A stretch of 64,000 nt of DNA. Source: Paenibacillus sp. E222. GTDB lineage: Bacteria; Bacillota; Bacilli; Paenibacillales; Paenibacillaceae. Every line of letters begins with the position of its first letter. Position 1 is the stretch's first letter. The notes below the pieces were generated by a model. That model was not told the origin of the DNA, made no database searches, and saw only the letters and a list, made by a program, of their open reading frames with translations. Position numbers and translations under genes: made by a program. Shown in pieces: positions 19,456 through 47,392 of the stretch. Where the stretch lies: positions 3,348,001 through 3,412,000 of the forward strand of contig NZ_CP058552.1 of NCBI RefSeq assembly GCF_013401555.1, given 5' to 3'.

Positions 19456-19496
19456 TTCTTTTTACAATACACAACAACGATAAAGTTGGACCTTTT

Positions 19497-19686
19497 TTAA
19501 GTTGAACTTCTTAAAAATACACAATAACGGAGAAGACAGAAAAAACCTGGAAAAGCGGAGCGTTCGCCTTTATCATCGGATTTTCACTTTTGGAGAAAGT
19601 GAATGAAAAAAATCAGAGGATAACAGCGATTGAAAGGTTATTCTGGCAGCGAAGTGGTCAGTGTATTTGGATTTAGTTGAACTTAA
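19497..19686. repeat. Symmetric interspersed element with covarying hairpin, copy 1
   Basis: Between dgkA and cdd. The core begins with a small hairpin GCGGA-gcg-TTCGC (19555-19567), then a long hairpin TTATCATCGGATTTT (19570-19584) with AAAATCAGAGGATAA (19609-19623), capped by CACTTT/AAAGTG, and ends ACAGCGAT. The ends are near-inverted repeats TTAAGTTGAACT (19497-19508) and AGTTGAACTTAA (19675-19686), each about 50-58 bases from the core. Copy 2 lies at 46814-47064. A degenerate direct repeat AATACACAAcAACG/AATACACAAtAACG lies at 19467-19531. It could be a MITE-like element or a repeated RNA structure. Confidence 0.65.
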
Positions 19687-19732
19687 TCTATAGGATAGAA
19701 CTTTATATACACCCCAAAGGGAGAGATTAATT

Positions 19733-20146
19733 ATGGATAATGGTTTATTGATGCAAGAAGCAATTAAGGCACGTACGAAAGCGTATACGCCTTATTCTCA
19801 TTTTGGTGTAGGTGCAGCTTTGCTTGACAGTGAGGGACATGTGCATCATGGTTGTAATATTGAGAATGCTGCTTATACGCCAGGCAACTGTGCTGAGCGT
19901 ACAGCTATGTTCAGCGCGATTGCAGGAGGTAAGCAACCACGCAGTTTCAAAGCCATGGCCATTGTAGGAGATACAGACGGCCCGATTGCTCCATGCGGCG
20001 TATGTCGTCAAGTAATGTACGAGCTGTGTGAACCGGATATGAAAGTTATTCTGGGTAACTTGAAAGGTGATCTGCAGGAAACTACAGTTGCCGAACTATT
20101 GCCATGGGCTTTTGGACCATCTGATCTGAACTCTGCTAAAAAGTAA
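19733..20146 (+). CDS. cdd: Cytidine deaminase
   Basis: 137-residue homotetrameric zinc enzyme of pyrimidine salvage converting cytidine/deoxycytidine to uridine forms. Substrate and zinc motifs are plain: HGCNIENAAYTPGNCAERTA and PCGVCRQV. AAAGGGAGAG precedes the ATG. It stands 277 bases from dgkA, separated by the repeat element, and is followed by era. Confidence 0.97.
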   Translation: MDNGLLMQEAIKARTKAYTPYSHFGVGAALLDSEGHVHHGCNIENAAYTPGNCAERTAMFSAIAGGKQPRSFKAMAIVGDTDGPIAPCGVCRQVMYELCEPDMKVILGNLKGDLQETTVAELLPWAFGPSDLNSAKK

Positions 20147-31333: not shown

Positions 31334-31760
31334 GTTGTTCGGAAAGCTTGACAGACAATCGCTGGTGGCCTTCGTTGCCACGAGAGGAAAGTCCGGGCTC
31401 CACAGGGCAGGATGCTGGATAACGTCCAGTCAGCGCGAGTTGAAGGATAGTGCCACAGAAATGGACCGCCGATGGCCGGATTTTCCGGCACAGGCAAGGA
31501 TGGAACCGAGGTGTAAGAGACCCCGAGGAACGCTGGTGACTTCGTTCCTGGTAAACCCCATCTGGAGCAAGACCTAATGGGACACAGTCGACTCTTTGGA
31601 GAAGGCAGCCTTAGCCCGAGGTGTGTCTAGGTTGGTCGCTTGAGCTGTGCAGCAATGTATGGCCTAGATAGATGATTGTCGCTTGTGGTGGGAGGGTAGT
31701 TCCCGTCTGAACCACGAAGAGCACAGAACCCGGCTTACGGTAAGCTTTCCTAACTACAAC
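31334..31760 (+). ncRNA. rnpB: RNase P RNA (type B)
   Basis: Catalytic RNA for tRNA 5' maturation. The universal core GAGGAAAGTCCGGGCTC is at 31384-31400 and its 3' partner ACAGAACCCGGCTTACGG at about 31723-31740. P1 closes by GTTGT/ACAAC and GGAAAGCTT (31341-31349) with AAGCTTTCC (31742-31750). The layout with GGTGGGAGGGTAG...GAACCACGAAG and AGGCAGCC...TAGCCCGAGG fits the Bacillus type B form. Ends are set by the P1 pairing and may be off by a few bases. Confidence 0.96.
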
Positions 31761-46813: not shown

Positions 46814-47064
46814 ATATAAGTTAACGTTTGACGGGCCCGGTAAGTAACGAGAGCTTGTACAGCTAAAGTAGTGTAGGGATCAGAATCGATTCTGAAGAAG
46901 CGAAGCGTTCGCCTTTATCCCCGGATTTTACCATTGAGTAAATGGATCAAAAAAATCTGGGGATAACAGCGATCGGAAGAACGAGCTGATACCGAAACGG
47001 TCACGATGCACGTACTGGTTATCTAAGTTGCTAGAGGGAGTCTCATCAACCAGTTAACTTATAT
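46814..47064. repeat. Symmetric interspersed element with covarying hairpin, copy 2
   Basis: Fills the typA-ylaH gap. Perfect 12-base terminal inverted repeats ATATAAGTTAAC (46814-46825) and GTTAACTTATAT (47053-47064) flank a core lying about 85 bases from each end. Core: hairpin GCGAA-gcg-TTCGC (46900-46912), then TTATCCCCGGATTTT (46915-46929) with AAAATCTGGGGATAA (46952-46966), capped by CCATT/AATGG, ending ACAGCGAT. A further palindrome CAGAATCGATTCTG lies at 46881-46894 and ACTGGTT/AACCAGT at 47014-47054. The core matches copy 1 (19497-19686) with compensatory changes. Confidence 0.7.
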
Positions 47065-47095: not shown

Positions 47096-47392
47096 ATGCA
47101 AGCATGGTTCGCATCACACCCGATCGTAGCCTACATCGTCATCTTTGTATTGATTACTTACGTTTATAATAAGGTGTTTCGGGTACGTCAGAAATTGCCG
47201 CTTGGTAAGGAAATCGTTCTCTATATATTGATGGCGATGGGCACATTCATGCTCCTTGTTTTTCAAATCGACAAGCTGCCCATTATTCAATGTTTGCTGG
47301 TCGCAGTTGGTTTGATGCTGTTAGTGAGAGTGCGCTATTTTATCGAAGGTCGTCAAAAGAAAAAAGCGGAAGCTGCCGCTCGAAACTCATAA
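47096..47392 (+). CDS. ylaH: YlaH-like membrane protein
   Basis: 98-residue protein with three hydrophobic segments (IVAYIVIFVLITYVYNKVF, VLYILMAMGTFMLLVFQI, CLLVAVGLMLLVRVRYF) and a basic C-terminal tail. Position next to typA and the pattern IVxxVLITYxYNKVF...LPIIQ identify the YlaH family. AAAGGAGCTGGC precedes the ATG. Function unknown. Confidence 0.88.
   Translation: MQAWFASHPIVAYIVIFVLITYVYNKVFRVRQKLPLGKEIVLYILMAMGTFMLLVFQIDKLPIIQCLLVAVGLMLLVRVRYFIEGRQKKKAEAAARNS

Follow-up and report, generated by a model that had tools for sequence, protein, structure and literature searches.

Does the hairpin shared by two intergenic gaps of Paenibacillus sp. E222, one between dgkA and cdd and the other between typA and ylaH, belong to a structured RNA under selection, or is it the segment of a mobile element that folds? 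Both gaps, whose identity is backed by Pfam, lie within the 64-kb stretch of DNA that we analyzed (hereafter the window). A reading of the sequence alone had seen a common core in them, on the plus strand in both cases. This core is confirmed by inspection of the sequence and by the covariance model R1, which was built from 33 copies, copies 1 and 2 among them, and which gave two full matches in the window and no other.

Two foldback elements in the window

The two copies and their surroundings comprise the following features.

~19480..19706, plus strand: copy 1, whole foldback element in the dgkA-cdd gap, middle of type A, bounded by inverted arms
19497-19522/19661-19686 and 19480-19487/19699-19706: arms of copy 1, inverted pairs
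19524..19665, plus strand: conserved middle of copy 1 (R1 match, 133.2 bits)
19555..19561, plus strand: mini-hairpin GC-GGA-GC of copy 1 (sequence; G-C/A-U covariation in the family)
19564..19584, plus strand: 5' strand of the copy 1 long stem, TCGC + CT + TTATCATCGGATTTT (two mismatches in the stem)
19609..19629, plus strand: 3' strand of the copy 1 long stem, AAAATCAGAGGATAA + CA + GCGA (sequence, inverted pairing)
19733..20146, plus strand: cdd, cytidine deaminase, 3' of copy 1 (Pfam PF00383/PF08211)
~46814..47064, plus strand: copy 2, whole foldback element with a type B middle in the typA-ylaH gap, ends ATATAAGTTAAC/GTTAACTTATAT (perfect 12-bp terminal inverted repeat)
46868..47008, plus strand: conserved middle of copy 2 (R1 match, 148.4 bits)
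46879..46893, plus strand: 5' strand of the copy 2 outer stem, ATCAGAATCGATTCT (pairs with 46978-46990)
46900..46906, plus strand: mini-hairpin GC-GAA-GC of copy 2 (sequence)
46909..46929, plus strand: 5' strand of the copy 2 long stem (sequence, fold)
46952..46972, plus strand: 3' strand of the copy 2 long stem (sequence, fold)
46978..46990, plus strand: 3' strand of the copy 2 outer stem, AGAACGAGCTGAT (sequence, fold)
47096..47392, plus strand: ylaH, 3' of copy 2, with its start codon 31 nt past the element end (Pfam PF14036)

At position 7, the long stem has T-A in the first copy and C-G in the second, just as the sequence-only reading had it, and the apical stems that it described, CACTTT/AAAGTG and CCATT/AATGG, are real in both copies. 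Other parts of that reading have to be revised. First, a small hairpin is present, but it is better written GC-GNA-GC: the TTCGC that had been assigned to it lies outside and pairs long-range with GCGA. The mini-hairpin is backed by a G-C to A-U exchange in 4 of 33 copies, and the TCGC/GCGA helix by two-sided changes at all four of its pairs. Second, the repeat is not limited to the ~80 nt originally proposed, because with its arms each copy spans the whole-element coordinates given above. Third, the copy 1 long stem contains two mismatches that had gone unmentioned, A·G at position 6 and G·A at position 9, so that the two copies alone are weak evidence.

Folded with its arms, copy 1 forms one hairpin over the whole stretch (-57 kcal/mol, z -2.84, reached by 1 of 200 shuffles), and copy 2 (263 nt) forms a single long hairpin on the plus strand (-82.5 kcal/mol, z -4.70, 0 of 200 shuffles), with -69.1 kcal/mol and z -3.73 on the minus strand. 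The 101-nt cores gave plus-strand z scores of -1.71 for copy 1 (a fold that 12 of 200 shuffles equalled or bettered) and -5.63 for copy 2, and minus-strand z scores of -2.80 and -3.31, respectively; against shuffles, the minus strand of the copy 1 core thus does better than its plus strand. Since the copy 1 core fold is modest on its own, the case is decided by the genome-wide copies and by covariation.

Membership in a known Rfam family was rejected for the window and the two loci. At gathering score, Rfam matched the window only at RNase P RNA, and at the two loci, with E values up to 5, it returned only weak matches far under the gathering scores and nothing credible. The RNase P RNA itself is an ordinary one of bacterial class A (31343-31752, plus strand; RF00010, 260.1 bits).

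A dispersed repeat family of Paenibacillus and its relatives

Building a covariance model and searching Paenibacillus genomes with it, as had been suggested for these hairpins, brought up many further copies and significant covariation among them. The 7.5-Mb genome that contains the window has at least 125 R1 matches with E ≤ 0.01 among the best 150 of 2829 candidates scored, and 115 copies with E ≤ 1e-12, in 99 loci, were taken from it for analysis. A 281-base query found at least 47 pieces in the same genome (best 40 of 143 candidates scored), and a strict pattern found 11 exact copies there, compared with 0 for the reversed control.

Among 99 relatives the repeat was present in 71, namely all 60 of the genus (the source genome included) and 11 of the 39 that belong to the order's other families; the latter have 1-8 copies each, and one of them is marginal (E 0.007). 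The model matched 17 of 200 Bacilli, all 17 in the window's own family, and none of the 200 outside it. A pattern scan gave at least 120 stretches, and all 80 records among the matches listed were named Paenibacillus. It is therefore well established that the two window hairpins belong to one family of dispersed foldback repeats in Paenibacillus and some relatives of the same order.

Carriage by phages or plasmids was considered and rejected: with one copy as the query, no phage record was found, and the plasmid records were two from P. cellulosilyticus. Three viral contigs carry the exact pattern, including a pair that we describe below (L222 and L223).

Conserved core and variable modules

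Where the arms are readable, the element measures about 190-250 bp (about 230-250 bp for the window copies). From outside to inside it consists of the arms, the outer stem, the junction CTGNAGAA, the mini-hairpin GC-GNA-GC, the long stem and a variable apical hairpin. The long stem has the consensus TCGC-CT-TTATCnnCGGATTTT / AAAATCnGnGGATAA-CA-GCGA, in which CU/CA forms a conserved internal loop, and a second junction reads YRNAAG. A loose script rule sorted the middles of the 115 copies into 77 of type A, 25 of type B and 13 others. Two junction motifs, CUGNAGAA and YRNAAG, resemble the boxes of the hammerhead ribozyme; by inspection, a self-cleaving ribozyme was rejected, because stem I is missing from the junction and CUG is followed by a variable base.

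Thirty-five of the 115 copies reach a length of 165 nt or more, and three of these (L151, L156 and L007) exceed 190 nt. All 26 long copies shown contain an extra hairpin module of ~38 nt (TAAAAGCTTTCTGAAAGAAAGCT...GCATACGC), which enters at two alternative points at or beside the mini-hairpin. In the three longest copies there are two modules or nearly two. Carriers include L101-L120, L146, L148, L149, L151, L156 and L007:2936-3151, and at the cdd site the module is found in L172 and L173 and is absent from the other copies shown there. Arrays in tandem, each with at least three copies, occur 5' of cdd in one species (L171:1982-2793, three copies and a weak fourth) and in P. cellulosilyticus (L290:7226-7859). 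In the source genome, at ~434.5-435.4 kb (L160:741-1654), four diverged GC-rich copies (65-67%) stand in tandem at intervals of ~250-260 bp; they share the architecture but have other bases in the stems, and are perhaps a separate subfamily.

Covariation and the folding strand

We measured covariation on the 115 copies (alignment A4), an earlier alignment with 35 partial reverse-strand matches (A2) having been set aside. Two-sided changes occur in 30 of the 32 pairs against 14.3 in shuffles, 363 cells are compensated against 92 ± 13, standard pairs make up 93.7% of the pair cells against 84.9%, and the covariation score is 0.314 against 0.150 in shuffles and at most 0.082 with the partner slid; these values are to be read with the fact that the covariation alignments were fitted to the structure, and so lean towards it, and that the copies are mutually related. 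For the 82 copies outside the model, pairing is 93.1% versus 83.9%, with 259 compensated cells compared with a mean of 65 and a maximum of 84 in 300 shuffles. Three individual pairs depart from the standard in 43, 29 and 28 of the 115 copies, respectively. In the 33-copy alignment, 91.0% of the cells pair versus 84.0% in shuffles and the covariation score is 0.263 versus 0.147 (0 of 500 shuffles as high); neither the count of two-sided pairs (15 versus 11.9, 35 of 500 as high) nor the number of pair types (reached by 246 of 500 shuffles) stands out in it.

The same signature is seen among orthologous copies at one site. The alignment of 15 of the 16 ylaH copies (A3, with L203 left out) has 16 two-sided cells versus 4.3 ± 1.6 in shuffles, and at two of the outer pairs 7 of the 15 have a non-standard combination. 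In the outer stem of copy 2, both sides are altered between orthologues, from ATCAG/CTGAT in L191 to ATCGG/CCGAT in L192. Covariation far above the controls supports the proposal, first made for the two window copies, that selection on structure rather than chance likeness explains the shared pairing. That proposal had named as contrary outcomes a lack of further copies and stems broken as often as they are restored; what we found is a large number of copies in which standard pairs prevail at the proportion given above.

G·U cells outnumber A·C cells by 170 to 26, or by 97 to 26 without the one pair that is mostly G·U. This imbalance points to the plus strand as the one that folds.

Arms that differ in sequence and still pair

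The arms are often specific to the locus and complementary to themselves. The duplex of a copy's own arms averaged -24.0 kcal/mol compared with -16.8 kcal/mol for swapped arms in 27 type-B-like copies, and -22.0 compared with -16.9 kcal/mol in 81 other copies (0 of 2000 permutations in each set). The own partner was the single best match of an arm in 11 of the 27 and in 10 of the 81. At the ends of several loci (e.g., L011 and L004) the sequences are unrelated, yet a dozen bases pair. At the ylaH site, the arms fall into several nearly unrelated sequence classes across close species whose YlaH is 94-100% identical to that of the window; own-arm pairing is stronger than swapped pairing on average in 15 of 15, marginally in some and not always as the best.

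These arm classes could in principle be produced by template-switch (quasi-palindrome) repair or by recombination between copies, with one arm copied onto the other or both arms swapped as a block, so that complementarity would be kept by a process other than selection. We consider this improbable. It would account for the block-like form of the ylaH classes, which differ almost totally between close species next to similar ends and core, and for L204, which looks like a mosaic of two classes. However, many changes in the core replace one pair in isolation (A-U by G-C at several positions), the excess of G·U over A·C cells is not predicted by templated copying, and the mini-hairpin and junction are conserved. 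Furthermore, no donor of an arm class appeared among the loci compared: gene conversion as the origin of the ylaH classes was rejected for this set of loci, since the sole matches beyond the listed ylaH loci were in L230, which we took for the same ylaH site in P. barcinonensis.

Filled and empty sites

Orthologous sites record the history of the element. In the cdd sample (30 loci from 44 genomes), the element is located 5' of cdd in 13 loci (L161-L173, our own included) and was not found there in L174-L190, of which L174 retains a stretch that resembles the 3' end of the element. In the ylaH sample (30 loci), it is located 5' of ylaH in 16 (L191-L206, our own included) and was not found there in L207-L220; in L203, a type A copy sits inside a type B copy. 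Further filled and empty pairs are L046/L319, L292/L340 and L340/L224. The sites read as empty are L207-L209 at ylaH, L174-L176 at cdd, and L319, L340 and L224. The viral contigs L222 and L223 have flanks that are ~96% identical, and one carries the element, whereas the other has lost the core and keeps remnants of the arms; this difference possibly represents a route by which the element is lost. Gain or loss, tandem duplication and rearrangement are thus seen at orthologous sites.

In the 25 of 168 candidate filled/empty pairs that we read, there was no clean long target-site duplication, and TA or TCTA at L046/L319 is the only possible candidate. Terminal inverted repeats are present, perfect over 12 bp in copy 2 and of the TATATAARTTSAACT type on many copies, while other copies have ends that pair although their sequences are unrelated. 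With coding capacity judged from the ORF lists, the repeat has the make-up of a MITE, a short non-coding element with terminal inverted repeats. A parent transposon was not recognized in the source genome, where 52 matches to the ends within 2 mismatches included no inward-facing pair of transposon size.

A purely parasitic MITE, whose fold serves mobilization in trans (as folded single-stranded DNA or through a transposase) and has no function for the host, would agree with the MITE-like size and inverted ends, the filled and empty orthologous sites and the tandem arrays (L171, L290 and L160). We nevertheless regard it as rather unlikely. In such an element the ends are expected to be best conserved, but in our reading of the alignment the core is conserved and the ends drift; the two-sided changes among orthologous copies at one site also speak against it, as does the lack of a recognized autonomous element with these ends among the matches in the source genome. 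Each side of the question raised at the outset, an RNA family or the fold of a mobile element, is partly right: the repeat is dispersed and behaves like an insertion, as its empty sites indicate, and the fold of its plus strand is the conserved feature.

Position relative to genes and replication

For the source genome, 108 of the 115 copies could be placed, the four L160 copies and three copies without a neighbor being left out. The orientation counts come from a crude ORF script that ignored called ORFs overlapping a copy (28 of 115): 62 copies are tandem-sense and 10 tandem-antisense (p 2.7e-10), 21 are in divergent and 15 in convergent gaps. In 17 of the 21 divergent gaps, the sense gene is the nearer one, on the 3' side. 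A sense gene is thus located downstream of 83 copies, and the other 25 are the antisense and convergent ones. Over all 115 copies, 52 of 87 sense starts are 34-90 nt past the 3' end of the model, which puts them shortly after the 3' arm. An independent sample from loci named Paenibacillus, in which 108 of 133 elements were used and 25 left out, had 69 elements in sense and 11 in antisense in tandem gaps (p 2e-11), besides 16 in convergent and 12 in divergent gaps (10 of the 12 nearer on the 3' side), and 47 of its 81 sense starts fell within 34-90 nt; element-free gaps of 150-500 bp in named Paenibacillus were 155 tandem, 75 divergent and 43 convergent. In both sets, the tandem gaps (62:10 and 69:11) have the sense placement 5' of genes that is expected of a cis-acting leader.

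The leading strand holds 83 of the 108 copies and the lagging strand 25, with dnaA at 1.19 Mb and the terminus assumed to be opposite; in convergent gaps, the numbers are 9 leading and 6 lagging. Beside genes on the lagging strand, 6 copies are sense and 3 antisense (nine cases only), and for this reason the direction of replication alone does not seem to explain the sense bias. A replication-strand bias as the sole cause of orientation does not seem enough, within the few lagging-gene cases; the sense share did not differ significantly between genes of the leading and lagging strands (Fisher p 0.10).

As a separate observation, only 3 of the 124 listed copies are at 4-5 Mb of the genome, around the expected terminus, whereas every other bin has 8-28 (the last bin is of half length).

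We rejected the idea that the element brings or follows a promoter, because sigma-A-like sites are not enriched 5' of it under a simple PWM (22 of 110, compared with 23 on the reverse strand). This result also bears on a family of trans-acting small RNA genes with many paralogues, for which the stable conserved fold and the conserved unpaired bases of the junction would be natural. That origin is highly improbable, given more than 100 copies, the lack of promoter enrichment upstream, a 3' end that usually runs into a gene start and, by eye, no terminator past the 3' arm.

The parasitic reading could explain the sense bias by the purging of antisense copies or by transcription-coupled insertion, and some of the gene-level results are in its favor. 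Copies with (83) and without (25) a sense gene downstream do not differ significantly in structural integrity (94.2% versus 93.0% pairs, p 0.15) or in folding energy per base (p 0.35), and a cis role is therefore not demonstrated by differences in selection. Nor did the downstream genes reveal an evident functional theme among the 61 proteins listed, of which 19, together with YlaH, were scanned for families. The scanned proteins include pyrimidine-nucleoside phosphorylase, trpS, argB, argD, secA, carA, thyA, pcrA, purC, fabZ, hisA, ppk, mgtE, xylulokinase and others, three having no family.

Comparison with known repeats

The BOX repeats are the closest in kind to the Paenibacillus repeat, by analogy. 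Sections of PMC3049150 report 125 BOX in the Streptococcus pneumoniae genome studied and describe them as small, with inverted ends, an optional boxB module and a predicted RNA fold. As described there, they are nearly confined to the pneumococcus and S. mitis, have neighbors without a functional theme, are over-represented between convergent genes, and 60.8% lie on the leading strand. BOX (boxA-boxB-boxC, considered with RUP and SPRITE) resembles our repeat in number, size, inverted ends, modularity and fold, in a comparison of architecture drawn from those sections of text. In contrast, the Paenibacillus repeat is sense in 86% of tandem gaps (62/72 and 69/80), is on the leading strand in 77% of cases (83/108) and often near start codons, and has arms measured to be locus-specific. 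The authors of the BOX study, in its abstract, judged the pneumococcal repeats in a way similar to the parasitic reading (PMC3049150).

Other families compare less fully. Correia/NEMIS of Neisseria and ERIC of enterobacteria are likewise MITE-like and belong to another host group; part of PMC10969869 states that RNase III cleaves transcripts holding Correia elements and that ERIC insertions affect mRNA levels, and the likeness is one of description. PMC3733652 counts bcr1 among the bacterial MITEs; this interspersed repeat of another Bacillota group is specific to the B. cereus group by the title of its description, whereas the model of the Paenibacillus repeat, in the genomes searched, matched only relatives of the same order. 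REP/REPIN with RAYT transposases are also high-copy extragenic palindromes; REPs are 20-40 bp according to part of PMC3733652, whereas the Paenibacillus unit is larger, about 190-250 bp with a three-way junction. We found no description of the Paenibacillus repeat in the open-licence literature searched: strings of the core sequence gave no match there in a paper on Paenibacillus by title, and the main texts of PMC4666352 and PMC3733652 nowhere mention Paenibacillus.

A proposed role for the hairpin

The reading that we favor, as somewhat more likely than not, is that of a structured, MITE-like repeat whose copies are retained as RNA hairpins acting in cis, in leaders or between cistrons, with a function that we infer. 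The repeat would have spread as a non-autonomous, MITE-like mobile element, and its copies would be retained where the plus strand is transcribed within an mRNA leader or an intercistronic segment. There, the long hairpin would most likely act in cis on the message as a processing site of the RNase III or RNase Y type and as a stem that protects the 5' end for the gene that follows. Its conserved core (GNA mini-hairpin, three-way junction and CU/CA internal loop) would be the part recognized by a protein or RNase, and the arms would need only to pair. A cis-acting RNA hairpin fits because the copies are in sense orientation before gene starts, wobble pairs mark the plus strand and the arms retain pairing alone. 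A processing or stabilization step is suggested by the analogous effects of Correia (RNase III) and ERIC (mRNA), and on this analogy processing or stabilization would be the most likely role. More tentatively, the repeat may be a mobile RNA module that serves Paenibacillus as a generic mRNA leader: a long hairpin with a constant core that a protein would recognize, and with self-complementary arms free to vary by locus, placed in sense before ~80 otherwise unrelated genes of this genome (83 of the 108 placed copies), would set the processing or lifetime of their messages, and hairpin modules inserted beside the junction would tune the effect.

A structured repeat is thus present in every congener searched, yet without an Rfam match in the window or a description in the open-licence literature searched. 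Its sense bias by gene starts separates it from BOX, which the BOX authors judged parasitic. Arms that evolve yet still pair are a clear case of structure retained while sequence is replaced. With more than 100 copies, a single Paenibacillus genome provides natural replicates of what a large hairpin before the ribosome-binding site may do to an mRNA.
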